Origin: Asparagopsis taxiformis
Taxonomy: Eukaryota > Rhodophyta > Florideophyceae > Bonnemaisoniales > Bonnemaisoniaceae
Assembly (NCBI GenBank): GCA_030407315.1
Contig: JALQPE010001848.1
Coordinates: 34,013-98,012 of the forward strand
DNA: 64,000 bases
Reading direction: 5' to 3'
Position 1 is the stretch's first letter. The number at the start of each line of letters is the position of its first letter. Made by a program: the position numbers and the translations under genes. Positions 38,827 to 64,000 of the stretch are shown here, in pieces. Below the pieces are notes generated by a model. The model ran no database searches and was not told where the DNA came from. It saw only the letters and a list, made by a program, of their open reading frames with translations.

Positions 38827-39044
38827 GATTATTTTTCTCTACCTATTCGAAGCCCTCGCTGAGAATTCAAACGTTTTAATGGAGACTTATTGCTTCGCAC
38901 GTTCATCAGTGAAAAGAATAACTGCCGTGTGAGAAGTTTCTTCATATACAATAGACTTGTATCTCACTGAAGAGTTCGACTTTTTTAATCTAAAAGAGTC
39001 TCCACAGTTAACGAACGAATTGGGAAGAGTAAGAACTTATTACT

Positions 39045-39637: not shown

Positions 39638-39654
39638 GTCGCCGCGTGGCGTGT

Positions 39655-43098: not shown

Positions 43099-43129
43099 CC
43101 CACTTCTGATTTGTATCTCCTGGACTCGG
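43068..43129. repeat. Perfect 62-bp palindrome at the Copia truncation point
   Basis: CCGAGTCCAGGAGATACAAA... reads identically on both strands, with centre GGGCCC between 43098 and 43099. One arm codes for the Copia protease motif; the other is its exact inverted copy. Confidence 0.97.
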
Positions 43130-45005
43130 CACAGGATAAGCAAAAATAGAGAATATTCCATGGAAAATGCCGTATTGTACAGTAGAACTAGTCACCATAT
43201 TTTAGCGGAACGCCCATCCCCAACGTTTGGATAAGGCCCATCGAAAAAAATGTAAAAAATCATGGGCTGAGACCAGCACGGCGATTTTGTTTTACAGTAG
43301 GCAGGAACCAAGCAGAACTATGGTGTGGCCGTGAGGTGATGGCTGAACCATGTACGGAAGGACACGTAGGGATGGAAATGAACCACGTCCATATATGAGC
43401 AGGACGGCGGGTTGACTAGAACGGGCCAAGTCACGCAGGCACGGACTGTTGGAATGGAACCAGTACTGTATATGGGTATAGTTAGATATGGGGTGCACCG
43501 TGACTGCGATATGTGGTGGAAGGTGCAGAGCGATTCGTAGAAATAAACTATAAAATATAATGGGCACACCGTGACGGTCCGGTGTCTGAAACCAGGCGTA
43601 AGCAGCACTCGCTGAATGGACGGTGACCAAAGTATGATTATTGTATTCATTGGAATAATTCCAGAGTAGGTGACTTTTTGCTCATGGGACGTGACCAAGC
43701 TGACTTGTGGAACTGGCCAAACGATAATTGGAAAGGGACCATTGACTGGGCATGTGCGGCCCAAGGCAAAGCGCGGTTAGTTTCCAAACTACAGTACTGT
43801 GTAAAGCCCGGATATATTCTATTATAACACCTGCTCGTGACACTGGTATTATTCCACCGTGGAGCACTGTAATGGGTACGGTTCACTTCCACTGGATGTA
43901 GTGGTTGTACCGTCGGGTGGGCGTGGACCATGTCCACTGGGTAGAGTGGTTGCACCGGTGGGCGCTCTGGGTAGAAACTGAAAGGTAGAACGGGCGGCAC
44001 ATCGCACTTTTGCGGAGAAACTGCAGGACGGATAGGTCTGACTGAAACGATATCTAGGTAGAATGGAAATCGGCATAGGGACAATGAATTAGACTAGGTT
44101 GCAGCCAGTAGCGGGTACGCAAGATTTACGATATAGTGTAGTGGATATGGAATAGGTAAATGGGCAGCTAACGCCAAAAGTTTAACGACATGAAGATCAT
44201 CTGTACACTGCACTACGGAACTATGAACTATGCCACCATGGCAGATACTAAACGGCAAAACACTAGCTCTACATAAAGTAACTACAAATACATATAGGCA
44301 TGAAAAGAGAGATGAGGGGAAGCCAGAAATTTCTGTTGGCACCTGGAAGGAAAAGAATAGATGAATCAATGGTTAGTGCTAGGAATGTAACTTCATCAAC
44401 GCTAGAAGCATGGTTAGAAGCGAGAGAACATACCGTTGATAGTGGAGCCAGAGCTTGAGTAAGCGGATTGTAGAGAACCCAGAAACTTCTGCTGGCACAT
44501 AGATGGAAAGAAGTGGATGACACAGTGGTTAGTGCTGGAAACGGTATGCCAAAAGCTCGATTAGAAGTGAGAAAACGTAGTAATGACAGTAGCCCTGGAG
44601 AAAGACGAAACAGAAAGTAGGAAAGGCAGAAAAGTATGTTAGCAGAAGAACAACGAAGAACCGCAGAAAAAGAGAATGGGAGGAATGGCTAAAAGACTAA
44701 ATGAGCAGGAAAACCTTATCGTAGGATGGAGGCGGCGGGGCACAATCACATCCGTAGGGATGTGATTGCACTCCGCCGCCCCATCCTGCGTAGGTGGTGT
44801 GCTCCGAGCGACAGGTGCTGGCGATGTTGCCCGGCGTGACGCAAGGCTTAAATACTGCTGCAGAGTGAGCCCAGAGGTCGCGTATTTCACTTGCGTAGTG
44901 AGAAAGCGCGCGCTTTTCGTACTGACAAATCAGAAACAAATCATCGATGATCTATGAACACGTCATGGACACGTCATGGACTCGAGATGGACTCGTCATG
45001 AATAC
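43130..45005. other. Gene-free stretch with degenerate repeats and one hairpin
   Basis: No gene supported. There are two diverged tandem copies of a ~155-bp unit starting at about 44324 and 44481 (ACCCAGAAA-TTCTG-TGGCAC...GGTTAGTGCT), a short duplicated GGGTAGAGTGGTTG-type motif near 43900-43970, and a GC-rich hairpin at 44723-44787. Short CGTCATGGACA-type repeats lie at 44957-45005. Confidence 0.5.
44723..44787. repeat. GC-rich near-perfect hairpin
   Basis: Arms of ~30 bp (AGGATGGAGGCGGCGGGG... / ...CCGCCGCCCCATCCT) around ATCACATCC-GTAG-GGATGTGAT, with few mismatches. Confidence 0.85.
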
Positions 45006-45045
45006 GTAATGAAATAGAACACTAGGTAGTGTTCTATTTCATTAC
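45006..45045. repeat. 40-bp palindrome with CACTA/TAGTG core
   Basis: 19-bp exact arms around a central GG. The core reads CACTAGGTAGTG (45020-45031). It marks the candidate left end of the CACTA-like element. Confidence 0.95.
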
Positions 45046-45131
45046 AGCTGGCGTGGAGCTGCACGCTTGTGAGCGGAAACGTGTATTGCAGGCTGAGGAG
45101 CCAATGATGAAAAATTAGAAAAAATGACTAG

Positions 45132-45241
45132 TTACTGCAGTAAAAAGTGATCTAGGAAGATGCATTTGGTAGATCAGTTTTTACTGCAGTAAGAAGTGAT
45201 CTAGGAAGATGCATTTGGTAGATCAGTTTTTACTGCAGTAA
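45132..45241. repeat. Hairpin family C, tandem dimer
   Basis: Three copies of the palindrome TTACTGCAGTAA at exact 49-bp spacing (45132, 45181, 45230) enclose two identical inserts, each AGTGATCTA...ATGCAT...TAGATCAGTTT. Each insert can fold on itself and the dimer can fold in several registers. Confidence 0.95.
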
Positions 45242-45511
45242 AAAAACCTAATTTGCTTTAATTTTATTGTGGTACGTTCCGCCCTGAGGAAGCTGGTTCA
45301 GGCTTGAGGCAGTTCAAGGAATGGATAAGCTCTGGAAGAAGCATGAATGGTATAGACGAGGAATTAGAGATGGTTACATAAAATATAACATAGTGTCTGA
45401 CAGTTTTTGGGACAAGGGACATAAGTATGGCCAATGTCAAGGTGGATGTATGTGACGGAAACGCTACAATATGAGGAAGTTTGTTTACGGGAAGTAATAT
45501 GGTAGAGAAGC

Positions 45512-48500
45512 TTATGTACTAGACCCTAGAGTATCATGCAGTCCTTGGCGGATATCCATCTTCTCTTGCAAAATAGAGAAGGAACCACCATCCATAAACG
45601 AAGGACCTCCATGCGTAATTCCTCCATTCGAAGTGCCTTGCTCCACAGAACATAATGAAGGGCTACAATTGTGGAGGAGACCAACCTTACGAACCCCTGA
45701 AGTGAGAGGGAGAAACCAGGAGCCGGAATCGGTGTTCGGAGCAAACGTAGTGGGGGACGACTTCTGCTTGATAACTGGAAGAACAATAGCGTGTGGTGGA
45801 GACAGGTTTTCCTGGTGAGATTCGTGTATGCAAACGTTTCCCGGTGAAGCAATGTTTCCATCAATAGTCAGGTCAAACACGGTGGTAACAGCCCAAAAAG
45901 AAGGCGAACAGGTCTTCTGTAGAATTCTAGAAGACGGGGAAGCTGAGTAGCAAGCTTGTACTACACAGCCAGAAGCTATTTCTTGTGGCTTTGAAAAGTC
46001 CCGAGACGCAGCAGAGGGCGAAGCTGCACAGGCAGGGTGGGCAGAACTGAGACGTGCTCCCTTGCATGGTTTTCCACGAAGCATGACTGCATCCGAATTC
46101 TGCCCACAGGAAAAATCCTGCTGTGGTAATGAAGAGGGAACTCCTGTCCACGAGTAATATGAATATGGAGAAGAGAAGAATGGTAAAGAAGACCTATTCA
46201 AATGTTCGAGAAGAGGTTCTTGACAGAGGTCATGCAGCGTACTAGCCGGGAGGTTCTCCATGGATTTACAGTGCTCCCGTCCGAATAGAACACGAAGGAG
46301 AAACCGTTTAGAACGTTGTCTCTCCACAGATGCTGGAGTAGAATTGGAGAAACTTTTCAAAGCAAGATGGAGGCTTCCTTTCCAATAGTTTCCGAGTGCC
46401 GCTAACATAGCATCCAACTGTCTGTCAGCACCTCCGGAATGCTCTAGACCTCGTTTCATTTGTTGATGTGTTGCTTCGAATGATAGCTCAGCTACCTGGC
46501 GAGCGTGTCCGAGCAGAGGAACAGTGTGTTCAAATGCCTCAATGAGACGGTGCAAGTTTGGCTTATTGTCAAGAATCTTCCTTGCCCGGAATCCAGCAGT
46601 CTTGTTTTCCATCTCAATGTGGTCATTATCATTCGTTACTATACCTTCTGTCTGCATCTTCCGTTTCTTCGAGACCGCTGTGCTCCGCTGTCTGGTAGGA
46701 ACAGTCTTGAGCAGGTCATCCACTAGAGTAGCATATTCTTTCGATAGCTGCTGCAGACGACGGAGACCGTTGTGCGCAGAATTCCCTGTAGCTCTCTGTA
46801 CTGCCTCAGAACCGTCGATATTTTTTCGTGGTAGGAAGTATGTAGCTGCAGATATAGAGGACAGGAGACGAACAAGTTCTAGGGACAGATGGCGTTGCTC
46901 TTCAGAAGCCTGGAGTGACCTTGAACCGCTACCTTCGGATGACCTTGTAGTCTGCGATTGGAATTTCAGAGAAGACCTGAAGCAGTGTTCGGCGACGAGG
47001 AGAACTGCAAATCTGTCCGAGATTCCCATTGTATGAGTTTCACCTGCGTTGAAGTTATATATCCTGTTCTGATTTGCGAGGCCCAATACACGGAGGGCAT
47101 CCACCATGAACCTGTCGGCCAGCCTTCTCACACCATCATTAGGCAAGCTTGAAAAAGCATTGTCCAGAGCATCCTTTGCCAGTCCATGGAGGAGATGGTC
47201 AATTCCAACAAACGTCGAACGGTATGGGTCCAGAATAGCAGGCACGACAGGGATTCGTAGACCATCGTTTCCGAGTGGTGTCCCGGTTGGAACCAGCCCT
47301 TTGGACCTAGCTTCATGAAGTAGTCTTTCAATGAGATGCAATGGAGTGTCTGTGATATTTTGCACTGTTCTCAAACCCAGATACTTCAAGATGTTTGCAG
47401 AACTTTCCGATGACTGAACAGCAGCTGTTCGCTCGGATGTGCGAAAGTGTGTATCAGAGCTCGAATGTAAACGGGTGTCGTAGCCAAACTGCGAGTTCTT
47501 CCCATATTTCCCCCCTCTTACAAAGAAACACAAATGGCATGGGCAGTCTGCGTTGTGCCCCATGACATCCAGCACATGAGAACAGGCAGGATAATCCGAT
47601 ACGAAACCAATAAAGTCCAGGAAAATTAGACATTCATTGCCGTCTGGATCGACATCACGAAACCCCGACGTACATCCTTGAATAATGTCTCTAGAGATAT
47701 GTCGAAGGATATGGTTTGTACTAACACCAGGACCTGTGACACCGATAACGCGCACAGCAGAACTGTTCCGGCGACAGTCCAGCGGAAGACCCATTGGGAG
47801 CATATAGCATCCTCCAGCACTCCCTTTCTTACCAGAGGCTTCATTGAAGTCATCGCAGTATAAAAGAAATGGATAGACGTAGTATGTGGTACCGCAGCTG
47901 AGAACCCCACGGAGATGTGTAGGATGAAAGGGGCTGGGGCTCGTGCCTGGTTTCAATAACTTGACATTATTGATTGCACGAGTTCCGCCGACAACTTTGT
48001 AATGCCCTTCAGAGTTGACGAGAAAGAGCAGTTTTTGTGATGGGCCTGGCGGTCCGGGAGAGCTGACGACAAGCCCAATGAAGAACTGTATACCACAATT
48101 TTGAGTAGGGTTACACTCAGGACTGGGTGATAAAACTGTCAGGTGATCACCCGGCCGAGCATATTCCCGGAACGACTCTTTCTGAAGGATGAAGGCGGAC
48201 CCATATGAATGCGGGGAGACCGAAAGCCTACTATGAAATGTGGCACCGGAGTTTATCCATGAAGAAGATGTGATAGCTTTGAACGACTCATGGCTGGAAG
48301 ATAGTGATTCATGTTGGAAAAGGGAACTGAGAGTAGGATCTAGAGAAGAGGCGTGCTGCCCTGATGTGACATGCAGTTCCACAATACTACCACCGAAAGC
48401 AGAAACGGGAAAGCCGTCTTTTACCGCCTCCGCCCTCATCGTGTAGTTTTGTCCTTTTAAGGAGTACTCTCTGAATTTTCCTAGCTTCGACTTGCACACG

Positions 48501-49582
48501 TTACCATGTAAACTTAGTATGTCATCCGAGTCGGAAGCATCCAATTGTGTGTTATCACGCCACGCAAGGTCGAATATATGTGGTGCAGTAATGTCTGCTC
48601 GTGCATATTCGCTTGGTGGAACGATAAGTACAGGTGCTGATTGACTAGCTTTGTTTTGTTCGACCTTGCTTCTTCGTAGAATTGCAGAAGAGGCAACACG
48701 AGCTGCACTACGCTCTGCGTTTACAGGGAAGTATACGGTTTCCGAACGTAACCATGCGTTGAAGAACAGCCACGGTCTTACCTTCCGCATAATTGTCGAA
48801 TAATGGGGTAGACTTCGCTGAACGTGTTTGTTCGTGGAACCTTGTCTAGCGAAATCGAACAACACGCGATCTTCCTGAAGGTTTGCTGCGGTGCATTTCG
48901 TCGACCCTGTCAGTTTGGCGACAGCGTACAACGTTGTCCATTCTGTCATGTAATTGCGAGCTTTGTCTGGATTGGACGTGTTCATGATAAAGGGAGAAGA
49001 GATTAGGAGCTTCGCTTCTGCCTCCTCCTGTAGAAACAGGTCGTTGTCATCCGAATCGGAGTCGTTTGTTGCGGTGACGTTCTCATGATGGTCGGAAGCA
49101 GCGGGATGGCACAGTTTAGGAACTGTCGCAGCAGAAGTGACGGGGTCTCTGCCGGAGGATAGTACAATATCATCGTCGCTAGGAGTAATACAAGCTTTTT
49201 GAACTTCTGGAACAATTGTTCCAGAAGTATACTTGAGTATATTGTTCTGCTGCCCACTATTGGCGTACGTCAAAGGGAGGGTGGTATCCACAGAATTGCT
49301 CCCAGGTCTGAAGATATCCTGTGAAGGCGAGGAAGGGAGGACTGGATCTGGATCTGGGGTCTGCGAATTGGTAGCTATGGGAGCATGGGGAGGGTTCGAA
49401 GTGCTACCATACTCTGTTGCCGGGCGAGGATGATGGGTTTCTGGTGTATTGCAGTCCATTTCCTGAACGGCAAAAGGATTTGAGACTGTTCTGGATGTCG
49501 AGCGTCTAGTCCGATTGCGGACAGGGGCTACATAGTTGAAACGGAGCCTCGGGCCATTCCTAGACTTTCTCGGTCTAGCCAT
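45512..49582 (-). CDS. Putative TNP2/CACTA-superfamily transposase
   Basis: 1,356 aa from the first ATG (49580-49582; MARPRKSRNG, an AT-hook-like basic start). The N-terminal ~230 residues are Ser/Pro/Asp-rich and disordered. The middle has LLYCDDFNEASG, GCYMLPMGLPL, VTGPGVSTNHI and FLDFIGFVSDYPACSHVLDVMGHNADCPCHLC, which parallels the TNP2 order 'Asp, PGP, DFPA, G, CP-C'. Near residue ~1050, ELSFEATHQQMKR supplies a possible catalytic Glu. The last ~230 residues are Ser/Pro-rich. CACTA motifs at both flanks support the call. Alternatives are a KDZ or Plavaka-type transposase or a new DDE family. Confidence 0.5.
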   Translation of the reverse strand: MARPRKSRNGPRLRFNYVAPVRNRTRRSTSRTVSNPFAVQEMDCNTPETHHPRPATEYGSTSNPPHAPIATNSQTPDPDPVLPSSPSQDIFRPGSNSVDTTLPLTYANSGQQNNILKYTSGTIVPEVQKACITPSDDDIVLSSGRDPVTSAATVPKLCHPAASDHHENVTATNDSDSDDNDLFLQEEAEAKLLISSPFIMNTSNPDKARNYMTEWTTLYAVAKLTGSTKCTAANLQEDRVLFDFARQGSTNKHVQRSLPHYSTIMRKVRPWLFFNAWLRSETVYFPVNAERSAARVASSAILRRSKVEQNKASQSAPVLIVPPSEYARADITAPHIFDLAWRDNTQLDASDSDDILSLHGNVCKSKLGKFREYSLKGQNYTMRAEAVKDGFPVSAFGGSIVELHVTSGQHASSLDPTLSSLFQHESLSSSHESFKAITSSSWINSGATFHSRLSVSPHSYGSAFILQKESFREYARPGDHLTVLSPSPECNPTQNCGIQFFIGLVVSSPGPPGPSQKLLFLVNSEGHYKVVGGTRAINNVKLLKPGTSPSPFHPTHLRGVLSCGTTYYVYPFLLYCDDFNEASGKKGSAGGCYMLPMGLPLDCRRNSSAVRVIGVTGPGVSTNHILRHISRDIIQGCTSGFRDVDPDGNECLIFLDFIGFVSDYPACSHVLDVMGHNADCPCHLCFFVRGGKYGKNSQFGYDTRLHSSSDTHFRTSERTAAVQSSESSANILKYLGLRTVQNITDTPLHLIERLLHEARSKGLVPTGTPLGNDGLRIPVVPAILDPYRSTFVGIDHLLHGLAKDALDNAFSSLPNDGVRRLADRFMVDALRVLGLANQNRIYNFNAGETHTMGISDRFAVLLVAEHCFRSSLKFQSQTTRSSEGSGSRSLQASEEQRHLSLELVRLLSSISAATYFLPRKNIDGSEAVQRATGNSAHNGLRRLQQLSKEYATLVDDLLKTVPTRQRSTAVSKKRKMQTEGIVTNDNDHIEMENKTAGFRARKILDNKPNLHRLIEAFEHTVPLLGHARQVAELSFEATHQQMKRGLEHSGGADRQLDAMLAALGNYWKGSLHLALKSFSNSTPASVERQRSKRFLLRVLFGREHCKSMENLPASTLHDLCQEPLLEHLNRSSLPFFSSPYSYYSWTGVPSSLPQQDFSCGQNSDAVMLRGKPCKGARLSSAHPACAASPSAASRDFSKPQEIASGCVVQACYSASPSSRILQKTCSPSFWAVTTVFDLTIDGNIASPGNVCIHESHQENLSPPHAIVLPVIKQKSSPTTFAPNTDSGSWFLPLTSGVRKVGLLHNCSPSLCSVEQGTSNGGITHGGPSFMDGGSFSILQEKMDIRQGLHDTLGSST

Positions 49583-49885
49583 ATCTCGATAACCTGGATT
49601 GAGGTAGCACCTAGGTGCAAACAGCTGTTTGGAAGGGAGGGAAACGCTGTACGCCTCTATATTATGAGGATACAAATCTCTATAGTCTATCAATCTGTAG
49701 AAGAACGAAATTGGAAGGGGAGATCTCAGAGCTGACCGTTACAGTCGTTGCAGAGAACATGTTCTCTATTTCCATGGAAGCCAGGAAATAGTGCAAAGTA
49801 CTGATGAGTATACATGAAGACTGAAAACTTCAAAGAATGACATAGTTTTTACCAGAATCGTAATTCATCCTATAGTGTTTACTTA

Positions 49886-49949
49886 GCAAGAAACACTGTC
49901 AAGTAGTGAAGGAGATGCCTCTCCTTCACTACTCGACAGTGTTTCTTGC
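49886..49949. repeat. 64-bp palindrome with mirrored CACTA motifs
   Basis: ~30-bp arms with one mismatch (GTCAAG/CTCGAC) around ATGCCT. TAGTG (49904-49908) and CACTA (49927-49931) face each other. It is the candidate right end of the transposase-bearing element. Confidence 0.93.
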
Positions 49950-50027
49950 AGCTTCGCAACTGCAGACAGAGCACTCAGTGCAAACACTATACTCCATGGA
50001 GTGGCACGGAGAAGTTCCAGACTAGTC

Positions 50028-50069
50028 TAAAATTTGGTAATTTTTTGGCACAAAAATTACCAAATTTTA
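50028..50069. repeat. Hairpin family A, simple copy 1
   Basis: TAAAATTTGGTAATTTTTT-GGCAC-AAAAATTACCAAATTTTA, near-perfect palindrome. Confidence 0.9.
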
Positions 50070-50335
50070 TGCCCCCACTCGTAGTGACCGTATGGCTCGT
50101 ACACCGCCCTGCTTTGTGCTCCCGTCCATATTCCATGAAACACTCACCACCATCGGTCAGCACCACGTGGGCAGCACCTTCTATAGTTCCTTTCAAATAC
50201 GTTTCTGGACTGCTGGTGCACAACAGTCTCAATGTACTACGACGAACACCGTCGGAATATTCAGAAACATACATCATTAAAGCATCGAATGCGACGACTA
50301 GACGAAATGTGGAGCAGGAGCGGTTGTCCAAATCT

Positions 50336-50822
50336 GGTGCAGACGGTCGCCAGACTAGTCTAAAATTTGGTAATTTTTGAGCCCAAAAATTACCAAATTT
50401 TATGCCCCACTCGTAGTGACCGTATGGCTCGTACTCCGTCCTACTTTGTACCAGCGACCTTATGCCATGGGACACTCACCACCACGAGTAAGCACCACGT
50501 GGGCAGCACCTTCTATAGTTCGGTGCAATTATGTTTATCGACTATTGGTGCACAACTGTCTGGATGCATCACGATGACTAGATGTTCAAGATTGTATGAG
50601 GAGAGAAGTAGACGGACATAGATGCACGTCATGGTAATACCGGTTCGGTTTTGAACAGAGCTGCAATGCGCCGTCAATGTTCGTCAACAACCATCCAGCG
50701 AAGAAGCGTAGCATTTGGAATGTTTAGAAACATCAGTAAAGCATGGAATGCATGAACTTGACGTAGCATGGGGCAGGAGCGGTTGTCCAAATCTGGAACA
50801 GGTGGGCGCCGGACGGGTCTAA
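50336..50822 (+). repeat. Module B, copy left of the dioxygenase gene
   Basis: Nearly identical to the reverse complement of 55214-55774. It starts CAGACGGTCGCCAGACTAG, contains a simple family-A hairpin (50361-50402), and ends CGCCGGACGGGTCTAAA. A shorter, diverged direct copy precedes it at ~50028-50335. A minus-strand frame (49987-50475) crosses both copies but is not convincing as a gene. Confidence 0.9.
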
Positions 50823-50926
50823 AATTTGGTAATCAAAAATTACTGCAGTAAAAACTGATCTAGCAAAGTGCACTTGGCTAATCATTTTTACTGCAGTAAT
50901 TTTTGCCCAAAAAATTACCAAATTTC
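50820..50926. repeat. Hairpin A with nested hairpin C
   Basis: A-type arms around a C unit (50840-50899; TTACTGCAGTAA at both ends, GTGCAC at the centre). One base of the GATC pairing arm is lost (GGCTAATCA). Confidence 0.9.
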
Positions 50927-51383
50927 ACGCCCCTTCTTGTACTCTCTTCACGACTGTTCATTGGGTACTGATTGATTTGAACGCAACCGGTGAGTCTTTT
51001 GGCGCGTGGGCGCGAATTTATTCGCACCCCTTCAGTTAACCTTCCAAACGTTACGTCTACACGATTTCCTGTCACTCTCCTCTGCTACTCATCTACTACT
51101 CCTTGTAGTACTCCAGCACCTCAAAGGCAATTCAGATCGTGCATCTCCCTGCTTCAGCCCAACTCCCCCTGCTTTCCAAGCTTCGCTCTTCGCATCTCTC
51201 TCTGCTTCTCCCGCTTTGCATCCATCTGTCTCCCCACAGTGACAGTGTCCCATCCCTCTCTCTCTCTCTTCAATCCTTGCTCTCCCGTGCCCTCTCTTTC
51301 TCTTCACTCCCTGCCCTTTTCGTGCCCACTTCACCTCTATACACCGTTCAGAGTTCAAGAGCTTGTTTATCCCACCCACAAAC

Positions 51384-54300
51384 ATGTTTCATCGTCAACG
51401 CTCTCGTCTCGCAGCTGCATCTTCCCGCGCTCCAGCTCGGGAGCTGACAGTCCCCGCGATGCCCCGGGCTGGTAGCACGCTTGCGAACTACGAGTTCCGG
51501 CAGATGACACTTCCGATTGCGGACATTCATGTCACGGAAGAAACATCGCGCGAGGTTGATGAGTCGCATGTAGATGTGTTGTTTCAGAAGATGGTTCTTG
51601 AAGGCTTTCAGACCTCTTCCGTGGGCTCCGTGACTGTCGTTGGTCTAGCCCACGAGTCCGACGAAACACGCTTCTACATCGCGGATGGTCTCCATCGTCG
51701 TGGCGCTCTTGTCCGAGCCAAAGCGGAAGGAGTTGAACGTCTGGCTTCTATTGTGGACAGCGTTCCTGTTCAGGAAGCGTTCAGGCCAGATGGACAAGCC
51801 ATGACGATGGAAGACGTGCTCTACCTGAGTCAGCGGCTGAACGAACTGGTGCACACGGTTTTACCGACCACCATCCGCGACCGTATTCATGCTATCATCA
51901 GCATATACAACTGCAACTTGAAGTACGCGAAGGAAGGGGAAAGGAAACTCTCCAGTATGACAGCTTCGCAGCTGTGCAACTGGTTCTTCCAGCGTCACTT
52001 CAGTGGCATACTCAGGAAGAGTACGGTGACGTCTATCGTCAATGTGGCTCTGAACATGAGACGTTCACCACGCACGTACGAGGCGTACAAGATGGCCTCT
52101 GGTAGGAAGGAAAATGAGGTTGGAATCAGCCTTCTAGTGCTGAAGGACACCGCGTTCACAAAGGCTGAGGACCGTGCCAGTGAGCTGATGGTTAGGTGCA
52201 TTCACTACCGCTCTGTGAAATTGCTCCAGTCCTTTGGTCGCATCCCAGGTCTCCAGCTCAGGGTGTATCTCAATTACATCAGAGATTTCTACCTGGTAAT
52301 CCGTGAAGTCGCACCCAAGGTTGGGATGACTACGGACGAGCTGGCAGACCTGGAGGACCTCGAACCGGATGGAACGGACATGATCCCGACCTGGAAATCC
52401 GTGTTCAAGCGCATGGTTCAATATGAAGAAGAACCTGTGCCAAAACAGGAGAAGAACCACGAGCGTCGCCGAGAAGATTTCCGAACCGTCATCCTGCAAC
52501 GTTTCAACATTGCACCGGATCGTGAGACTCCGCCCCCTCCTCCCGGAGCATCTGGCGATGCAGTGCTTGCCACTGCGGCCAGTCAAGGCGCAAAAGATGT
52601 GGGGAAGGAGAGCGAGAAAGCGGCAGAGAGCGTTCCTGCTCCTGCCCCTGTGGCATCAGCCACTCCTCCGAAGTCACCATCACAGGTGACTCGGCAGGCT
52701 CGCTCTCCGACCCAATTCGGGGAGAATATCATGGAACCTCTCCCCGTTCCCCTTCCCTCACAACCCCTTCCTGAGGACGAAATCAATCCGATGGACATTT
52801 CTCCTCCTGACTCCCAAGCCAAGCCGGACTCAACAGCCCGCGCCCCTTCCCCCTCGAAGCCCAACTCTCCTCCCCCTTCCCCCTCCAAACAACCCGACTC
52901 ACCCCCCCGCTCCCCCATGGCCGTCTCCCCACCCACGTCTGCTCCTGTTCCCGACTCTGCTATCGCCACGGAACAGCAGAACCCCGAAACCTCGGTTGAA
53001 GCTTCTCAACCGCAGGGGGGTGGTGGGGGGACAGTAGTTTCACGCTCTGTGCGCATTCCGCCCGATGAAACTACGCCACGCCCCTTTCCCTGCTCGCTTG
53101 GATCACACTGTCGCTTCCCCGGCTATGCCGCTGTGCACAAATGCACAGCGTGCAACATTCAGCCAGTACACAACCTGTGCGACTATCCTCGAGTATATCA
53201 CCTCATCCCCATCAAGTACCTCAACAACGGTGAGCGAGACATGGTGTTCGTCTGCTCCCGTGAGTGCTACGATGGCCGTCAACCGGATGACCCCCCTTCT
53301 TGGACCCCTCCTGCAGGGGTCACGTTACAAGAAGCGTGGGAAGGTGATGCGTACAATCCTTTCGAAAAGGACGCGTCCTCTACCGAGTCTGCTGAAGAAA
53401 AGGATAAGCAGACCGGTGAGGCTCCGCGGAGTACGATGGGAGGGAAGGCGCCCATATCCCGGGAACCAGCCAAGAAAAGTGCCTCTGGAACACCGCGGCG
53501 GGGAGAAAAGAGGAGGAGAGAGCCGACCACTCCTCCTCCGACTCGGATGACTCGGTCCAAGACCAGAAGTGCCGCTATCGCAGAGCAACTCATCGCTCTC
53601 GGTAGCCCGTCTTCTCCCCCTGTCTCCCTTCCGCTTCCTGCACAGCCACCCTCATCTGGCGAAAAGGAGCGTGAAGGTGAGATAGAAGACGGCGAAACCC
53701 CTACAAAGACGAAGGTGACTTCCAAGGGGTTTCGGGTACACAGGTATGAGGACGAGCAGCCACCGCCACCTTCCTTTCTCACGGAGCAGACCACGCTTGC
53801 CCAAGCTGCTACGTTCGTGCGTTCAATTTCGGGTCTGCTCCATCCTGAACACCGCTCTGGGTTCATCATGACGAGTGGGGAGGTGGAGGAGATCAGGGAG
53901 GATATCAACTCCGCGGCTGGTGGTACATCCGAGGAGAGGATTGTTTATTGGGAGCGGGCAAGGGCTAGTATTGATTTCGATGGATACATCGTCCTCGAAG
54001 ACATACTAGGAGCTTCCGATGTACGGTCTGCAATCCACGAACTGCTCTCTGGGTTTGCCCAAAAGTTCGATGACAATGTGGAAGGGGCGTGGGGCACGAT
54101 TCTGAACTCCGGTTCAGCTGCCCAGGATGCCCGGGGTGGCGCGTCTCGCCAGCGGTACATGACCCCCCGCTCGGCTGTCATTGAAGACCTCGACGGGGAG
54201 CAATCCATGTCGCTGGCTCATGACAAGGTTTCCGTGGATGTCATCCTCGCAATTATAGCGGAAATGTTGCACTTGGAGGATTCCGTTTCATCTTTGAACG

Positions 54301-54890
54301 GATTCAAGAAAGGCTCCAAGCTGCGCTTTGGGAGGACAGGACTTCGGATGCTCCTGACGGGTTCCAACTGTACTCGTCAGATCCCGCATCTCGACTTCAC
54401 GTACCCAGGACCGCCACGCGAGGAACCGAACCGCTATTGTGGGACCCCTGCACCAGACCCAGACTATTCTTTCATAGCTACTGGTGCAGTTGGGTCCCCA
54501 ATTCTGGTACGACCGCGGAGTCATGCCTTCCTCAACGCCCCTCGTGATGCCTTCCTGGCCATCTGGCCCCATCTCCATCCAAAATTGGTTTGGATTCCAC
54601 CCTTCTCTGTTCTCGTGACTCGTGGTGACGTAGAGCACGCTGGTGCGGGATGGCAGGATTACGACTTCGTGAAGGACAAAATTTCTAAGACTGGAGTACA
54701 ATACGGTCATCACATTCGAGTCCATAGCATGGCTGTACGTGATTCTTCCGAGCTAGTCAATGATCTCGTCTACGCACCGGTGCAGAGTGACGACCCCAAT
54801 CGTCTGCCGAAACCTTACGAGTTCGCACACGACTTTGAGTCGGACGATGAGGTACCGGATAGTAGTGAAGATTACATAACAGTTGAGTAG
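51384..54890 (+). CDS. ParB-like / zinc-finger / 2OG-Fe(II) dioxygenase fusion protein
   Basis: 1,168 aa from the first ATG. Residues ~36-130 resemble a ParB/Srx-type N-domain (LPIADIHVTE..., then IADGLHRRGAL as the G-x-H-R-R box). Residues ~130-385 are helical with no recognised fold, followed by a Pro/Ser-rich linker. At ~565-610 there is a Cys/His cluster (FPCSLGSHC, HKCTACNIQPVHNLCDY, VCSRECYD), probably a zinc-binding finger. A basic KRRR linker follows. The C-terminal ~300 residues carry the dioxygenase iron triad H1002-x-D1004 (IPHLDF) and H1085 (GDVEHAG), plus a downstream Arg in HHIRVH that could bind 2-oxoglutarate. Nucleic-acid or protein hydroxylation is inferred; the substrate is unknown. 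The frame is intact and single-exon, flanked by inverted modules and hairpins. Confidence 0.7.
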   Translation: MFHRQRSRLAAASSRAPARELTVPAMPRAGSTLANYEFRQMTLPIADIHVTEETSREVDESHVDVLFQKMVLEGFQTSSVGSVTVVGLAHESDETRFYIADGLHRRGALVRAKAEGVERLASIVDSVPVQEAFRPDGQAMTMEDVLYLSQRLNELVHTVLPTTIRDRIHAIISIYNCNLKYAKEGERKLSSMTASQLCNWFFQRHFSGILRKSTVTSIVNVALNMRRSPRTYEAYKMASGRKENEVGISLLVLKDTAFTKAEDRASELMVRCIHYRSVKLLQSFGRIPGLQLRVYLNYIRDFYLVIREVAPKVGMTTDELADLEDLEPDGTDMIPTWKSVFKRMVQYEEEPVPKQEKNHERRREDFRTVILQRFNIAPDRETPPPPPGASGDAVLATAASQGAKDVGKESEKAAESVPAPAPVASATPPKSPSQVTRQARSPTQFGENIMEPLPVPLPSQPLPEDEINPMDISPPDSQAKPDSTARAPSPSKPNSPPPSPSKQPDSPPRSPMAVSPPTSAPVPDSAIATEQQNPETSVEASQPQGGGGGTVVSRSVRIPPDETTPRPFPCSLGSHCRFPGYAAVHKCTACNIQPVHNLCDYPRVYHLIPIKYLNNGERDMVFVCSRECYDGRQPDDPPSWTPPAGVTLQEAWEGDAYNPFEKDASSTESAEEKDKQTGEAPRSTMGGKAPISREPAKKSASGTPRRGEKRRREPTTPPPTRMTRSKTRSAAIAEQLIALGSPSSPPVSLPLPAQPPSSGEKEREGEIEDGETPTKTKVTSKGFRVHRYEDEQPPPPSFLTEQTTLAQAATFVRSISGLLHPEHRSGFIMTSGEVEEIREDINSAAGGTSEERIVYWERARASIDFDGYIVLEDILGASDVRSAIHELLSGFAQKFDDNVEGAWGTILNSGSAAQDARGGASRQRYMTPRSAVIEDLDGEQSMSLAHDKVSVDVILAIIAEMLHLEDSVSSLNGFKKGSKLRFGRTGLRMLLTGSNCTRQIPHLDFTYPGPPREEPNRYCGTPAPDPDYSFIATGAVGSPILVRPRSHAFLNAPRDAFLAIWPHLHPKLVWIPPFSVLVTRGDVEHAGAGWQDYDFVKDKISKTGVQYGHHIRVHSMAVRDSSELVNDLVYAPVQSDDPNRLPKPYEFAHDFESDDEVPDSSEDYITVE

Positions 54891-55151
54891 GTAGGATTTC
54901 ACCTATAGGTTGCTCTCAACTAAAGTTTCTATTGTTTTCTTAATGTTCCTCCATTGCTTCACCTGTAGCATAGTATACTATATACTAACAGTATACTCTT
55001 CCCCATTGCTTACTGACAACTTGTGACATTCTGTGATCTACGATATTGTTTTCCTCTCAACCCAGACTAACGAGTGCGTATCCATGAGCTAAGAGCGCTC
55101 CCGACCTCAGCAGTACCTCTACTTTGTCTTTTCCAGCTGCTATTCAGGTCC

Positions 55152-55213
55152 TAAAATTTGGTAATTTTTTGGGCTCAAACATCACAAATTCTAGACCAAA
55201 ATTTTGACCCAAA
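55152..55213. repeat. Degenerate hairpin A at the right of the dioxygenase gene
   Basis: One intact A arm (TAAAATTTGGTAATTTTTTGGGCTC) followed by a decayed partner (AAATTCTAGACCAAAATTTTG). Confidence 0.7.
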
Positions 55214-55774
55214 TTTAGACCCGTCCGGCGCCCACCTGTTCCAGATTTGGACAACCGCTCCTGCCCCAGGCTACGTCAAGTTCATACATTCCATGCTTTA
55301 CTGATGTTTCTAAACATTCCAAATGCTACGCTTCTTCGCTGGATGGTTGTTGACGAACATTGACGGCGCATTGCAGCTCTGTTCAAAACCGAACCGGTAT
55401 TACCATGACGTGCATCTATGTCCGTCTACTTCTCTCCTCATACAATCTTGAACATCTAGTCATCGTGATGCATCCAGACAGTTGTGCACCAATAGTCGAT
55501 AAACATAATTGCACCGAACTATAGAAGGTGCTGCCCACGTGGTGCTTACTCGTGGTGGTGAGTGTCCCATGGCATAAGGTCGCTGGTACAAAGTAGGACG
55601 GAGTACGAGCCATACGGTCACTACGAGTGGGGCATAAAATTTGGTAATTTTTGGGCTCAAAAATTACTGCAGTAAAAACTGATCTAGCAAAGTGCACTTG
55701 GCTAGATCATTTTTACTGCAGTAATTTTTGTGCCCAAAAATTACCAAATTTTAGACTAGTCTGGCGACCGTCTG
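55214..55774 (-). repeat. Module B, inverted copy right of the dioxygenase gene
   Basis: Reverse complement of 50336-50822 with only scattered differences, but 74 bp longer because a family-C hairpin interrupts its family-A hairpin. Confidence 0.92.
55635..55753. repeat. Hairpin A with nested hairpin C (filled site)
   Basis: The C unit spans 55664-55724 inside A arms. The corresponding place in the left module (50361-50402) is empty, giving a filled/empty pair. Confidence 0.93.
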
Positions 55775-56130
55775 TAGCTAATGGGGCTTGAATTTAGGTG
55801 CAGTGTCTCTGTATTATTAGTGAAGCTAGCTCAAGGTTGTGGAGATTTTGTTTAATGCACTGTCATGATACAGAATGCGCCCAAGCTGCATACCCGTTCA
55901 AAACATTGCACCCCTTCACCAATCTTCAACAACAAAACTCCAAACTCTTTCATCATCCCGCGACCCCTCGTCAGAAATCGGGGCTTCCATAAATTCCAAT
56001 TTCAAATTTTGCGGGCGCGCGGAAAAATCTCCTTGCCGTCCTGTCAGGCACATGTGCCGGATTGCATTGCAATCTTCTCTACCAATCTATCGCATTCTCT
56101 CTTCTCCCTCGTTCCCGAGCATCCCCTGAA

Positions 56131-59100
56131 ATGGCGCAGCCACAACCCCGGCACGGGCTTGTCGAAACGTACAGCGAAGATGGGCCGATGCATCCATCTG
56201 ACAAGTACGGAAACGGAACCATTCTATGGGTTGATCCCGCTCGCGTTGTTTCAATTCCTGCTATCGCAGGGGCTAGCACCCCAGCCTCCGATGTCACATC
56301 CGTAGTGCATCTGGATTTCGAACGTCTCTATCTGTACGGTAGCATTGCGGACAATGGTGACGTAACCTTGGTGGGAGGCATGGACGTGTGCGAGGAGGTG
56401 TGGTCGCGCCCCCGACGGAACACATCGAGATATTTACTTCGCATGAGCTACGAATCTATTACTACCAAACCACATACGCTTGCCTCTATTCTCTTTCATC
56501 TCCTGGAGAGGGAAAGGATTATTCCGTTCTACGAAAGTGTAGCAATAGTCGCTCACATGCGAGACTGTTGGCATGAAGCTGAGAAGAAAGAGGATCATGT
56601 GCCCCTTGCAGAACGTTCGCTCACAGCGTTTCGAAGGGCTGTGAGCAGTATGTACAAGTTTGACCTGCCAGCGAATGCTTCAATCGTTCTGGATAAATGG
56701 TTCTCGTATGCCTACCATCGTCACACCTTTAACATTGTGCAAGCAGTCCGAAACTTCACCATTTCTGCTGGTGAAGATGGTAGTGTAGATATAGACACAC
56801 GGGTATGGGATCTATTCCTCACGAGCTGTGGGTTGCTGGATTTATCCGTATCCTTCTTTATTCCCGTGTTTGTCCATGAGCGTGATGAGCAATCAGCAGA
56901 GGATCCACTCAAAAACTCTCAGAGTCCTGGACCACCACTTCCAGTTCAGAAAGAGTTCTACACCGAGCATAACTTCTCCCAGTCCGCGATTGGTCGAGAT
57001 GCCTTCTCAAGACAATCACTAGCATGCCAATTCTTCGTTTCACAGACCCAGGAGCGCGCTTCGCATCAAGATAGCTGGACAACTCCGAGACTTACCACAA
57101 CTTTCGAGAGGGTTGTATTTCTCATGGCATTGATACAAATGGACCGAGACTGGAAGTTGCAGGCAGAATCCCGGCCACGCTCACGTACAAGAACGAGGTC
57201 TTCGAATAGACCCACGCCGCTTCTCAAGAAGGATAGTCCGTGGACTGCCCAGCGTCTTGGATATGGTATTCATGTGATTCTGAAGTCATGGGATGTATTG
57301 GCAAAGTCGCTAGGGGCTACCAATACCGAGGAGCTCTTGCAACCGTACCTTCTGTACGACCAGAGAGTATTCACGTACCACGTCCTGGACTCGGAAAATA
57401 GGGGCTTCGCACCGCTTCGAGAGCTGAAGACTTTGTTGCACGGCAGAGGAGCTGTTCGAAGAGTGCAGCACTCGGCAAGCATCTCGAGTGCGGCTGTCCA
57501 TCGTACGCTGCTGCAAGATGCTCAGATGCGCCTCTGCGCAACGTCCTTCTGGGAGCACATAATGACGATCTGTCGGCACAAAGAATTGTTCGACCAAACC
57601 GTTTCTTCACCGCGAGCAATACCTTTCCTACAGGGCTTCCAGGCGTCGACTGGTTCCCCGGATGCTGGGAGGTTTACGACTATTCGGGCTCTGGGTATGG
57701 TTGAAAGGCAACTCACGGCATTCAGCCTCACAGAAGAGCCACAATCAACGCCCGACCCTAATGAGGAGCTGTTCGGAGACACTGAGAGAACAGCTTCTCC
57801 AGTACGGGATTCTCCGCCCGGCGGGAACGGAACGAGCCCGAATGCTAAACGCAGACGACTAGATGAAAGCCCTTCTGGTGCAGGAAGCTCGAGCAGGAAT
57901 AGCGGTAACAGCGGTACCGCCGAAGCGGCCAGAGCTGATATAAAATCCATGCGTGCAGAAGATGAAGTGTTGATTCCTCCAGAAATGGACAACATGAAAG
58001 GATCTGTCCTGCATACTTTCAACTGCAGCTTCAGAGACCTTTTGAAGAACTATGACGCTGTTGACAATCCTCGAAAGCCGCAAATCCGGGAAGGTGCTCA
58101 GTTGGTACTCACTGACCCGCCGTACAATACTAGGCGTATGTCTGGCAGAGGAAACTCTGGTTACGATGTCCTCCGTCAGGAAGAAATCGAAGACACGGTA
58201 GCTGAAATTTCCAAGGTGACGCGCAAGGGTGGTCATGTTCTCATATTCACATCTGCTGCTCTGTTCTACAATTGGGTATACGAGCTTCGCAAAGTGAAAT
58301 ACTCTACGGGTAGTCCTATGTTCGCGCGTTGATTCGCAGCCTATCGTCTGTACTCGGAGCCCCACCCATTTTACTTCGCCTCCATATAGGATTACAACCA
58401 GTTTGTTAAATATGGTCGAGCTGGTTGTACATGCTACGAAGCTGGGTAAGGGTAAAGAAGGCTGGGGGATGGTGAACTACCGAAATGCAGGATACATCCC
58501 TTCTAGGTTCAAGGCTTGGACAAATGTCATCGACAACATCCCGCGCATCACAGCATCGGAGACAGTGAAATATTTGGACAAGGACAAGAAAAAGGTTACG
58601 TTGCGCCCCGAGCAGAAGACCGTAGCTCTCATGCAAGAGCTCATTGGACGTTTCTCAAACCAGGGAGACTTGGTCGTGGACATGTTTGCTGGCACTTTCT
58701 CTACTGCAGTTGCATGCCTTACTATGCACCACGGTCAGTACAGGAGGTTTGTGGGGTGTGAGAAGTTCACGGACTGCTTTGAACTATCCCTTCCTAGAGT
58801 AATCTTGCATTTCTGCAGCAGGTCTCCATTGGGAACTTTGCTCAACAGTCCACGCCCGCCCTGCAGCAGCTGGCCACTTCTCAACTCGGAACTTCCGATG
58901 ACGATTCCCACTCGAAGAACCCCTCCAGTTTACCAAGTTCGACACAACTTCCACCCCACCTCATCAGCTTTCTGACCGCCATTTGGTGCATCCCAGACCA
59001 GCACAATGACTTGATAGACCTTCCTATTCACAAATGGCCACAATCACTGCTGGGCTTGTTGTCCACCATGGATAGTAAAACCCTGCTATCAATTGATGCA

Positions 59101-59604
59101 ATGGCACACAATGTATACGTTGCAACTTCAACTATACCTGCAGCTGGTGATGGACTCTTCGCAAGAGTAGATATTGATCCAGGAGATATCGTCGGGTACT
59201 ATTTTGGGGCAGTGGTTTACAAGGATCTCTACCAAGCAAAACTGAAGACGTTTGGTACGGGTCCGACTTCGTTCTCGATTGAGCGCTTCCAGAAGTACGC
59301 AGTTCAAATCAAGGACCCAAATATCACCTGCTTGCTTCCGTCTACGTCTGGCCGCCCCATCTTCATTGTTCCATTCGAGTATTGCGCTGCTTCGAAAATC
59401 AACGACCCAACGTTCGTGGATCCAGCAGAGGGAACCGATCGCCCGTCGCGAACTGCTAATGTTAGTTTCTCCTCCCCTGTACAAGAACTCATCAGTGAGA
59501 GCTCTGTGTCTACCTACCAAGTTGTATGTGTTACTGCTAACGAGGCTATCTCAGCTGGATCCGAGCTGTTTATCGAATACGGTCATGATTACTTCACTGT
59601 CTAG
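56131..59604 (+). CDS. DNA adenine methyltransferase-SET domain protein (two small introns or frameshifts)
   Basis: The ATG at 56131 opens ~720 codons. The first ~600 residues are unrecognised; a Ser/Pro-rich basic linker (AKRRRLDES) follows. Motif IV TDPPYNT lies at residue ~661-667 and motif I VVDMFAGTF ~190 residues later: the beta-class amino-methyltransferase order, with the target-recognition segment between. The frame breaks near 58300. A 46-nt intron (58294-58339) or a 64-nt one (58276-58339), both GT...AG, rejoins it (FYNWVYELRK to PIVCTRSPTHF). It breaks again near 58799, where a 20-nt GT...AG piece (58799-58818), a 68-nt one or a 1-nt indel rejoins it. The last ~190 residues are a SET domain (AAGDGLFARVDIDPGDIVGYYFG to AGSELFIEYGHDYF). 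With 46- and 20-nt introns it is 1,135 aa. Two separate genes are possible. Confidence 0.6.
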
Positions 59605-59790
59605 CTGTTACCCTCTCACAGTCAAATTTCACAAGTAAATCCATCTCCATTAATGTTTTCACTCTGTTTCCCATACCTTCAATTTATTTTTATCGTAATG
59701 TACTCTTTCCCCCCAAGCAAGCAATGCGTAGAAGAATTTCCCGTTTGGTACGTAATGCGTCTGCATAAGGTTGGACAAGGTATATTCTGT

Positions 59791-59918
59791 GCGTAAAATT
59801 TGGTAATTTTTTGGGCTCAAAAATTACTGCAGTAAAAACTGATCTACCCGAGTGCACTTTGCTAGATCAGTTTTTACTGCAGTAATTTTAGAGCCCAAAA
59901 AATTACCAAATTTTACGC
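59791..59918. repeat. 128-bp hairpin A with nested hairpin C, best-preserved copy
   Basis: GCGTAAAATTTGG...CCAAATTTTACGC outer arms. The C unit is at 59824-59885 with both GATC sites and the GTGCAC centre. It is palindromic over nearly the whole length. Confidence 0.95.
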
Positions 59919-60303
59919 TGCCTTGTATGTGTTCTGGCATAGCCACGGGCACCACACAACCCTACATGGCATGTCGAAGGCTGAGGTTTGGATACCAGCC
60001 GTTCTTAGTTGTTTGCCTTGTTCCACATGCGGACGGTCTCCGCTTGTTTTTCAGCACAATGACAATGTAGAGAGAAATGCAGGTACCACAACTGTCTTGT
60101 ACATTGTACATCCATTCTCGCATTTCGTACATCATGCATGTACCACACGCAGGAAAAGCTGCTCAATGTACATTCTATGTGGTATGAAGTTTAACGCTTC
60201 TATAATTATAGCGTTAACGCTCCTAGCAACAAAACAGCCCGGAAGAACAAACTGAGCCGTGGTCATCTACATAGTCAGCTAGTGCTGCTTACATAGTGCT
60301 GAG
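59919..60303. other. Spacer between two A/C hairpins
   Basis: No gene supported. It contains an AT-rich inverted stretch around TATAATTATAGCG near 60200-60213. Confidence 0.4.
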
Positions 60304-60425
60304 ATTAAATTTCGGTAATTTTTCTAGCTATGAAATTACTGCAGTAAAAACTGATCTACCTATGTGCACTTGGGTAGATCACTCTTTACTGCAGCAATTT
60401 CAGCGCAAAAAAGATTACCAATTTC
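60304..60425. repeat. Diverged hairpin A/C copy
   Basis: The C unit is at 60336-60397 (GATCTACC...GTGCAC...GGTAGATC) with one end changed to TTACTGCAGCAA. The outer A arms have several mismatches. It is the most decayed member. Confidence 0.88.
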
Positions 60426-60722
60426 CTTGCCCCGAATATACCTTAGCCTACGTTCTGCAAACACATAGAGATGTAACCAAAATAACTTCTCTGGCTGATT
60501 GCATTGCTGGCTCCATTGCTTTTGGGTATGCCCAGGACCGTTACTGCCCGCAGCTTTTGTAACGGCCGTACCAATGTCCTTATCCGTTACATCTTCCGTC
60601 CATGCTCGAGACAAGTTTCCCCCTGGTCTCTTCTACTTATCCTTCCCTTCTCCTCAGCAACGTTTCCAGTTCTACTCAAGTACTCTATCCTGGGCGTGAA
60701 CCATTCAACGGTTTCCAGCAAA

Positions 60723-61193
60723 ATGAGAGATGATTTATCTTTGACTAGGTTTGCAAAGTTCGAAGAACGGTTCGCATCCCTCGAACAGTACATGCGCGAT
60801 TCCCTTTCGTCTATTCAATTGGAGCTGGCGTGTATTCGATACATGGCCTCCGCTGCTGCCGGAACAAACACTGTCCCTTCAGTTGTTCTGGATGAGAGAT
60901 CAAGAAAAGCAGGTCAAATTGCCACGCTGGTGTCTTCTCTGTTCAACAACAGGCAGGTGACATCTCGATTCGTCGCTTTCAGAACTGTTGCAGAGCTTGT
61001 TAAAACCTTTGTTGACGCCAATTTGCTCAAGAATTGTAATTCGAGGTCTGCAACATCACCACAGGTGGATTCCTGCACAACGTTGCTTCTTGCTGCCCTG
61101 TCGTTTTCGCAGACTTCAAGTTCAAATTCTGAGGTAAGGCAATCTAAGAGATCTCTTATCGGAACGGCAGTAGGAAACGACATGTGTTCTTAA
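60723..61193 (+). CDS. Hypothetical small protein with N-terminal coiled coil
   Basis: 156 aa from the ATG at 60723. The first ~40 residues (RFAKFEERFASLEQYMRDSLSSIQLEL) form a likely coiled coil. The middle is helical (AGQIATLVSSLF, FRTVAELVKTFVDANLL) and the tail is Ser-rich. No family is recognised. A pyrimidine-rich 100 bp precedes it, like the upstream regions of the dioxygenase and methyltransferase genes, so it may belong to the same cluster. Confidence 0.4.
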   Translation: MRDDLSLTRFAKFEERFASLEQYMRDSLSSIQLELACIRYMASAAAGTNTVPSVVLDERSRKAGQIATLVSSLFNNRQVTSRFVAFRTVAELVKTFVDANLLKNCNSRSATSPQVDSCTTLLLAALSFSQTSSSNSEVRQSKRSLIGTAVGNDMCS

Positions 61194-61248
61194 AACGCTC
61201 TATTATCGGAACTGCGTTTATTTCAATGGCAAATGACAGAATTGTGCG

Positions 61249-62393: not shown

Positions 62394-62519
62394 AACTGTT
62401 CTAGCTGGAACACCGCCGTCTTCATGTGACTGTAGTAGTTCCCATTGCTTGCCTCTGCTCCGCAATGTATGCTTCAGAATAATTAAACTAGTTCTTCCAT
62501 GTTCATCTCACTACCTGTA

Positions 62520-63905: not shown

Positions 63906-64000
63906 GACTGTGCATCATCCACATCCTTTCTATTCTGCTCCACCACACCGGGCGTGTACATTCCATTTCCTCTGTCTACGTCGATGCGGTCTCCCACTGA

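Follow-up and report, generated by a model that had tools for sequence, protein, structure and literature searches.

The 64,000-nucleotide stretch analyzed here (the window) is the last part, bases 34013–98012, of contig JALQPE010001848.1 (C1725) in assembly GCA_030407315.1 of the red alga Asparagopsis taxiformis. Its hairpin-punctuated row of three long genes is the middle of one copy of a ~22-kb, many-copy DNA transposon (family A), and this copy runs past the contig end. The genes encode a transposase-like protein, a protein with ParB-like, zinc and putative 2-oxoglutarate (2OG) dioxygenase regions, and a predicted adenine-type DNA methyltransferase (MTase) fused to a SET domain. A first-pass annotation had proposed a mobile cluster carrying its own modification enzymes. 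Across the genome (141.5 Mb, 3156 contigs), dispersed copies with exact ends at different flanks support that proposal, with the enzyme functions predicted from sequence. With somewhat better than even confidence, we read the element as a self-marking, anti-silencing transposon that would bring its own epigenetic toolkit, the roles of enzymes and hairpins being predicted ones.

A cut-and-paste DNA transposon with exact ends

The element is a cut-and-paste DNA transposon of the terminal inverted repeat (TIR) type, having both exact TIRs and target-site duplications (TSDs). Its extent and long genes in the window are as follows.

43130..64000 (+): copy of the family A transposon; left end exact, flanks unrelated; right end taken from copy C134 and others
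43130..43143 (+): left TIR, CACAGGATAAGCAA, 14 bp
45512..49693 (−): transposase-like gene, 1393 amino acids (aa); possible catalytic D around 613/699 and C(2)C at 719–722, motif read by eye
51363..54890 (+): ParB-like / C4HC3 zinc / 2OG-dioxygenase-like gene, 1175-aa frame, ATG at 51384
56131..59604 (+): predicted adenine-type DNA methyltransferase fused to SET; frame broken twice in the window copy, open reading frame intact in other copies

The three genes are open as the first-pass annotation described them, the last one in three frames between 56062 and 59604. Rather than being unlinked, single-copy syntenic genes, they belong to a dispersed repeat, and the repeated unit is larger than had been noticed: it spans 43130 to beyond 64000 and includes, from 60.5 kb on, one more conserved coding arm. 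The termini read CACAGG..CCTGTG. The terminal word CACAGGATAAGCAA occurs at 225 places genome-wide (the first 100 being listed), against 0 for its reversed control. Reading the left end in 18 copies retrieved from the genome gave 12 distinct flanks besides the window's own; copies with a common left flank are probably allelic. The right end lies 1202 bases beyond the window and was read in copy C134, with the terminal sequence TTGCTTATCCTGTG; it was found in 14 of the 17 loci examined, with 13 distinct flanks. Copies are also flanked by duplications, a point that the first-pass annotation had proposed to test: at four of the five sites with both flanks the TSD is 2 bp, i.e., GT (C2494/C2263), TG (C86), TG (C1000) and TC (C635).

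Probes from the window gave a consistent picture of many dispersed copies, often near-identical to each other. With positions 36001–45000 as probe, 23 further copies start at window positions 43127–43131, three of them at a contig end, and with positions 60501–64000 we recovered 40 places including the window's own, mostly at full length. Of 801 candidate places for a 295-base probe of the leftmost hairpins, 40 were scored and yielded 117 alignments; palindromes of the probe align to themselves as well. A copy of a second family, B, spans 21.8 kb (C86:15616–37391). Since 25.9 and 35.7 kb separate the ends in C1000 and C635, respectively, these two copies probably contain nested insertions. At C1754 (28260–29404; L083, L066), two same-orientation copies stand ~0.8 kb apart, with a right end at ~28498 and the next left end at 29304. 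The end of the C134 copy adjoins a 483-aa frame (L049:1289–2740) that looks gag-like by eye, and this copy is perhaps inserted into or beside a long terminal repeat (LTR) retrotransposon.

Two predicted modification enzymes and a transposase-like protein

From motif, position and copy behaviour, we infer that the 1393-aa protein is a DDE transposase. The motif is a DDF/SDYP-C(2)C arrangement, read by eye on the pattern of CMC-type enzymes.

The second protein is predicted to combine three regions, and its gene lies within a long inverted repeat.

51504..51785 (+): ParB-like N-terminal domain, PHROG 1033; DGLHRR motif common to families A, B and C
53091..53267 (+): C4HC3 zinc cluster in PHD-like order; spacing equal in A and C, cysteines kept in B
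54387..54719 (+): HxD...H...R motif, putative 2OG-Fe dioxygenase; motif kept in A, B and C
50349..50830 (+): left arm of the 482-nt inverted repeat around the gene, 97% complementary to 55207–55688
55207..55688 (−): right arm of the same repeat

Profile match and DG.HRR motif together indicate a ParB-like domain: PHROG 1033 is matched with an E-value of 3.3e-4 by the whole protein and 2.3e-5 by the domain alone. That profile is the sole one in support, Pfam giving no match to this domain. No relative of this protein was found in phage records, or in viral contigs scanned with two short peptide patterns.

In the third gene, the window copy displays frames at 56062–58332, 58403–58975 and 59011–59604 (+), which in copy C134 form a single frame of 1157 aa from an ATG. 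Because the two copies differ across this frame by two single-base indels and no substitution, the window gene is either freshly broken or mis-assembled. By its Pfam match and its DPPY and FxGxG-type motifs, the MTase is predicted to be an N6/N4 amino-methyltransferase (PF01555: 1.6e-10 for the C-terminal part in the window copy, and 1.9e-10 and 2e-13 in the public proteins P0008 and P0010); DPPY and FAGT are invariant in the families read. The nearest named models are adenine-specific (PRK11524/YhdJ-type and CcrM, with DpnA in PDB) and fall below NCBIfam cut-offs, while PADLOC returned type II/III methyltransferase models only. The SET domain (PF00856) scores 6.2e-7 and 30.2 bits against a cut-off of 22.4 in the window copy, and barely exceeds it in P0008 (23.6) and P0010 (22.6). 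Its best solved relative in a PDB search is SETD7, a weak match at E about 1e-3. Fusion of the two domains recurs in P0008 and in P0010, the latter 38% identical to family A over its length. The same two-pattern scan of viral contigs found no relative of the fusion, and phages matched its MTase domain only, at 25–28% identity in the 8 records listed out of 252.

Three families with inverted gene cassettes

A query with the SET domain gave 2074 candidates, and we drew family counts and open-frame fractions from the best 150: by hand count, 51 are 95–100% identical (A), 54 are 84–90% identical (B) and 45 are 78–80% identical (C). Hence, at least three related families coexist in one genome. Two of the 54, C2012 and C2038 (90%), are probably decayed members of A, their methyltransferase being that of family A. 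An open frame at least 1200 aa long, the length expected of the fusion, surrounds the SET match in 22 of 51 cases in A and 29 of 45 in C (including one interrupted by a stop), against 2 of 54 in B; the fusion is thus maintained in many A and C copies and split in most B copies.

From the left end, the gene order in all three families is transposase-like, ParB/dioxygenase-like and MTase-SET, the evidence for a transposase-like gene in family C coming from a single copy, C955, of which 2 kb was retrieved. Orientation differs: when the element is read so that its transposase-like gene is minus-stranded, the two genes that follow have strands +,+ (family A), −,− (family B) or −,+ (family C). We tallied by hand the elements for which the two enzyme genes were listed near each other, leaving out C2942 and C2378 (mixed-family genes 14–15 kb apart); the two genes lie on the same strand in 18/18 A and 9/9 B and on opposite strands in 27/27 C elements. 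The dioxygenase-like gene is opposite to the transposase-like gene in 13/13 A, and alike in 3/3 B (C50, C1847, C86) and 1/1 C (C955) elements. Since orientation is uniform within each family, cassette inversion appears to be a rare event and not a frequent switch.

Alignment of B with A displays inverted homology at 51433–54937 and 56130–59617, and hairpins flank each block in both families. The suggestion that hairpins are module borders therefore gains support, and the simplest account of the orientations would be that cassettes were inverted by recombination between the flanking palindromes and inverted repeats. As for their role, the hairpins might be recombination sites, terminators or sites bound by a protein. 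Elsewhere, A and B are 95–100% identical from 43130 to ~48.2 kb and 63–87% identical thereafter, with the switch inside the transposase-like gene.

We next considered the ratio of non-synonymous to synonymous substitution rates (dN/dS) between A and B, from a Nei-Gojobori script that drops stop codons and with a B copy (C86) that is itself frame-broken. It is 0.158 for MTase-SET (dS 0.80), 0.187 for the dioxygenase-like gene (dS 0.94) and 0.41 for the transposase-like gene (dS 0.15). These values indicate that both enzyme genes are under long-term purifying selection between A and B. Among public proteins, relatives are mostly members of the same families: P0011 is identical to the dioxygenase-like protein of family C (26 full-length among 41 matches), P0013 matches C, P0008 has the SET identity of C, and P0007, P0009 and P0012 match A, B and A, respectively. 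Because they match families found here, P0007–P0009 and P0011–P0013 offer no evidence for other species, which P0010, at 38% identity, may do.

Hairpins built on a near-invariant core

Palindromes were folded as DNA, each against 200 shuffles. Those between and around the genes are unstranded features.

45132..45241: hairpin to the left of the transposase-like gene, its three TTACTGCAGTAA cores spaced at 49 bp
49886..50069: two hairpins (49886–49949 and 50028–50069) between the transposase-like and dioxygenase-like genes
50361..50402: outer-arm-only hairpin
50820..50928: nested hairpin 5′ of the dioxygenase-like gene
55633..55755: nested hairpin between the dioxygenase-like and MTase-SET genes, z −15.1
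59789..59920: nested hairpin after MTase-SET, z −18.0
60304..60425: nested hairpin before the right arm, z −7.8

Nine of the ten palindromes reported by the first-pass annotation fold better than every one of the 200 shuffles (z from −6.6 to −18.0), while the one at 55152 proved degenerate (z −1.5, with 15 of 200 shuffles equally good). A further GC-rich hairpin, absent from that annotation, lies near the left end at 44731–44780 (folded within 44730–44800, z −6.5).

The hairpins are built on a near-invariant 12-bp palindrome, TTACTGCAGTAA. Across the window and C86 elements, 21 cores occur at ≤1 mismatch, 19 of them perfect, and a scan at ≤2 mismatches adds none inside the elements. Consecutive cores in one hairpin are 48–50 bp apart in 11/11 spacings, and flank and loop bases vary. 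Eight nested hairpins were compared: of their 49 predicted pairs, 6 changed on both sides with pairing kept, and many others have at least one broken cell; quasi-palindrome correction could be another source of such two-sided changes.

Within the window, the palindrome families are confined as had been stated, with consensus words only at 45.1–60.4 kb: one word gave 21 matches at ≤1 mismatch (both strands, 11 sites) against 0.09 expected, and the other 10 against 0.00. A two-mismatch look-alike of the core stands at 30667, outside the element. Genome-wide, the core pattern occurs at 1307 places against 0 in the control, with 8 in the window element and 9 in the C86 element. Instead of spreading at random, 87 of the 100 places listed, on nine contigs, lie by hand tally close to a gene or end of the element that our searches listed. 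The other 13, on seven contigs, have no such feature nearby among the best-scoring gene matches. Hairpins are therefore linked to element genes; an exclusive link would be a statement beyond the places listed. We dropped an attempt to equate hairpin number with element number (~154 equivalents from 1307 cores), as the 150 SET matches are the best 150 of 2074.

Right arm and surroundings

The right arm holds two candidate genes, neither assigned to a family, the fifth being without a Pfam match.

60504..62393 (+): candidate fourth gene, several exons; stop-to-stop frames with 72–88% aa identity to family B
62520..64000 (−): fifth candidate gene, extending past the window; 62523–63371 (−) with 82% aa identity to family B

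The fourth is one 537-aa open frame in family B, and the fifth (L049:1–342, −) displays 93% identity and 98% positives to family B.

Directly left of the element, Ty1/Copia-like frames (RVT_2, rve) at 39464–43097 belong to a ~3.6-kb repeat with copies elsewhere in the genome. A perfect 62-nt palindrome at 43068–43129 joins this repeat to the transposon, the repeat's final 31 nt being inverted before the left end; the junction may be biological or an assembly fold-back. Farther upstream, a Gypsy-type frame at 13382–18127 (reverse transcriptase, RNase H, integrase) lies beside a Mutator-like element (MULE) transposase frame with a SWIM zinc finger at 18956–23893. A 625-aa Sel1-repeat protein at 4356–6233 (−) is possibly a host gene.

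Relation to known transposons

Transposons with TET/JBP or SET genes are already known (PMC12730594). The closest likeness is to the TET/JBP-carrying fungal transposons (Kyakuja, Zisupton, Plavaka, EnSpm and others; Kojima 2025, PMC12730594), which likewise pair a transposase with a putative DNA-modifying dioxygenase; an anti-silencing role has been proposed for them, a function described there as without experimental validation. ParB, PHD and hairpins are absent from the main text of that paper, where methyltransferases come up six times, as cytosine or histone enzymes. Here, by contrast, the dioxygenase-like domain (putative, by motif only) stands behind ParB and zinc domains, in a ~22-kb element with a predicted MTase-SET gene, CACAGG termini and hairpin-bounded blocks inverted between families.

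According to the same source, the CMCT clade (CACTA/EnSpm-Mirage-Chapaev-Transib) is marked by 5′-CA..TG-3′ termini, a 2–5 bp TSD, and C(2)C then H(3-4)H between the second D and E; Plavaka termini are TGT..ACA or CATCA..TGATG, and Kyakuja and Zisupton have 7–8 bp TSDs. Our element resembles the Plavaka/CMCT clade in its 5′-CA..TG-3′ termini, its 2-bp TSD and a C(2)C after the putative second D, so that it agrees with the CMCT description in termini and TSD but not in H(3-4)H. It also differs in having no Pfam match, and its termini are unlike those of PlavakaA and PlavakaB. Two filings were rejected: Plavaka because of the CACAGG..CCTGTG termini, and KDZ (Kyakuja, Dileera, Zisupton) because the TSD is 2 bp in place of 7–8 bp and the transposase-like protein has no Pfam match, so the KDZ affiliation raised by the first-pass annotation is not supported.

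Precedents for single components come from other systems. The anti-silencing protein of plant VANDAL elements is reportedly a sequence-specific regulator without these enzyme domains. In these MuDR elements a transposon protein counters silencing of the element's own sequences (cited in PMC12730594), as the proteins of our element would. Oomycete HarbingerS and MuDR elements carry a SET methyltransferase, with other transposase types and, in the passages of PMC12730594 naming them, no mention of a fused DNA methyltransferase. In bdelloid rotifers, the bacterial-type amino-methyltransferase N4CMT works with the SET protein SETDB1, as here in a eukaryote, but both are described as host genes that silence transposons (PMC8885841), while ours would be one fused, transposon-borne protein. 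None of the titles and abstract beginnings listed in our literature searches described a transposon that carries a ParB/dioxygenase-like gene or a fusion of an adenine methyltransferase to SET, with an earlier mention possible.

A proposed self-marking, anti-silencing transposon and its alternatives

In the reading we favor, the 1393-aa protein would mobilize the element as a DDE transposase. MTase-SET would write an amino-methyl mark, most likely N6-methyladenine (6mA), on element DNA and also put a histone-lysine mark, perhaps on lysine 4 of histone H3 (H3K4), on element nucleosomes, the fusion of a SETD7-like SET to an adenine-type methyltransferase allowing both marks at once. In several eukaryotes, 6mA co-locates with H3K4me3, the trimethylated form, in permissive chromatin (PMC12695648). 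The ParB/zinc/dioxygenase-like protein would bind the element and remove or oxidize host silencing marks; the dioxygenase could oxidize CpG methylation, as proposed for the TET/JBP transposons (PMC12730594), and in most basidiomycetes CpG methylation is described as limited to transposon-rich regions (PMC13297926). Jointly, the enzymes would hold the element in permissive chromatin, and recombination between palindromes and inverted repeats would have flipped cassettes in place while the families split.

Several results weigh against this reading. The transposase-like protein had no Pfam match and no PDB sequence-profile match, its core was modelled poorly (predicted local distance difference test, pLDDT, of 34), and the CMCT H(3-4)H motif was not found between C(2)C and the C-terminus of the core in P0001 or P0013, where D/E was placed by eye. 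Likewise, the second protein had no Pfam match above cut-off, its dioxygenase-like part had no PDB sequence match and a poor C-terminal model (pLDDT 31.5), and the dioxygenase name is a putative one read from the motif. The SET domain displays INDP...ANV in place of NHSC, which we take to be the canonical SET motif. The full MTase-SET frame is missing in 29 of 51 A matches and in the window copy, and in the commonest B version SET occupies a frame of 423 aa (shared by 25 of 54), separate from an 856-aa frame for the methyltransferase. From these frames, family B appears to have spread with, or soon after, loss of the uninterrupted fusion. This counts against a strict need for MTase-SET in B, where intact copies could act in trans. 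At one of the five sites with both flanks, C384/C98, a clean TSD is absent. Lastly, the clearest exchange breakpoint between A and B, at ~48.2 kb within the transposase-like gene, is away from any hairpin, which rules out hairpins as the only exchange borders. The split 856/423-aa version is itself common to many B copies, e.g., C1844, C544 and C1837, as if a split-gene master copy had spread.

Three other explanations were weighed. The enzymes may be passive or self-repressing cargo, with MTase-SET silencing or limiting the element as a form of copy-number control rather than protecting it. The precedent of a bacterial-derived N4CMT that silences transposons with SETDB1 in bdelloid rotifers (PMC8885841) speaks for this, as does the abundance of B despite its mostly split MTase-SET, expected if loss is harmless or helpful. 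Nevertheless, the enzymes evolve under apparent long-term purifying selection between A and B, many A and C copies are near identical with the frame open, which might point to a recent spread while the gene was still intact, and SET is nearest SETD7 and not the SETDB1/SUV39 types (by the weak PDB match); overall, we regard cargo as rather unlikely. Less probable still, the palindromes could be independent foldback insertions, similar to miniature inverted-repeat transposable elements (MITEs), gathered in intergenic gaps, with cassettes inverted by chance. Outer arms stand alone at 50028 and 50361 and the inner one alone at 45132, as if one had inserted into the other, and the 13 listed places without an element feature fit such insertions as well. 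However, hairpin positions relative to genes are equal in A and B, the core spacing is constant and 19 of 21 cores are perfect while flanks diverge, and six stem pairs carry two-sided changes with pairing kept. We give very little credence to a duplicated host gene cluster, restriction-modification-like or developmental, in place of a transposon: conserved multi-gene order and purifying selection on the enzymes would suit it, yet the exact inverted-repeat ends, the 12 distinct left flanks besides the window's, the TSDs and the 225 terminus matches would not.

Bacterial ParB loads at palindromic parS sites, and for that reason the repeated palindromes are natural candidates for the address of a ParB-like protein. 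As a speculative, on balance doubtful extension of the self-marking reading, they might be operator-like landing pads: the ParB-like protein would load at paired TTACTGCAGTAA, slide over the genes and deliver the dioxygenase-like domain, while MTase-SET would write 6mA and a histone mark together. The cassettes would then be self-addressed, orientation-independent chromatin units that can be flipped or exchanged. If true, this transposon would hold an entire epigenetic system addressed by sequence.

Taken together, the element unites a putative eraser, a predicted fused writer of DNA and histone marks, and a candidate addressing domain with matching palindromes, all in many copies; the writing by a transposon of its own chromatin is therefore directly testable. 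In-place inversion of genes between palindromes would be an unusual route of transposon evolution, and a multicopy eukaryotic element in which a bacterial-type adenine methyltransferase is fused to SET would be a possible vehicle for moving 6mA systems. In Asparagopsis taxiformis, the element may write its own chromatin state instead of leaving that to the host.

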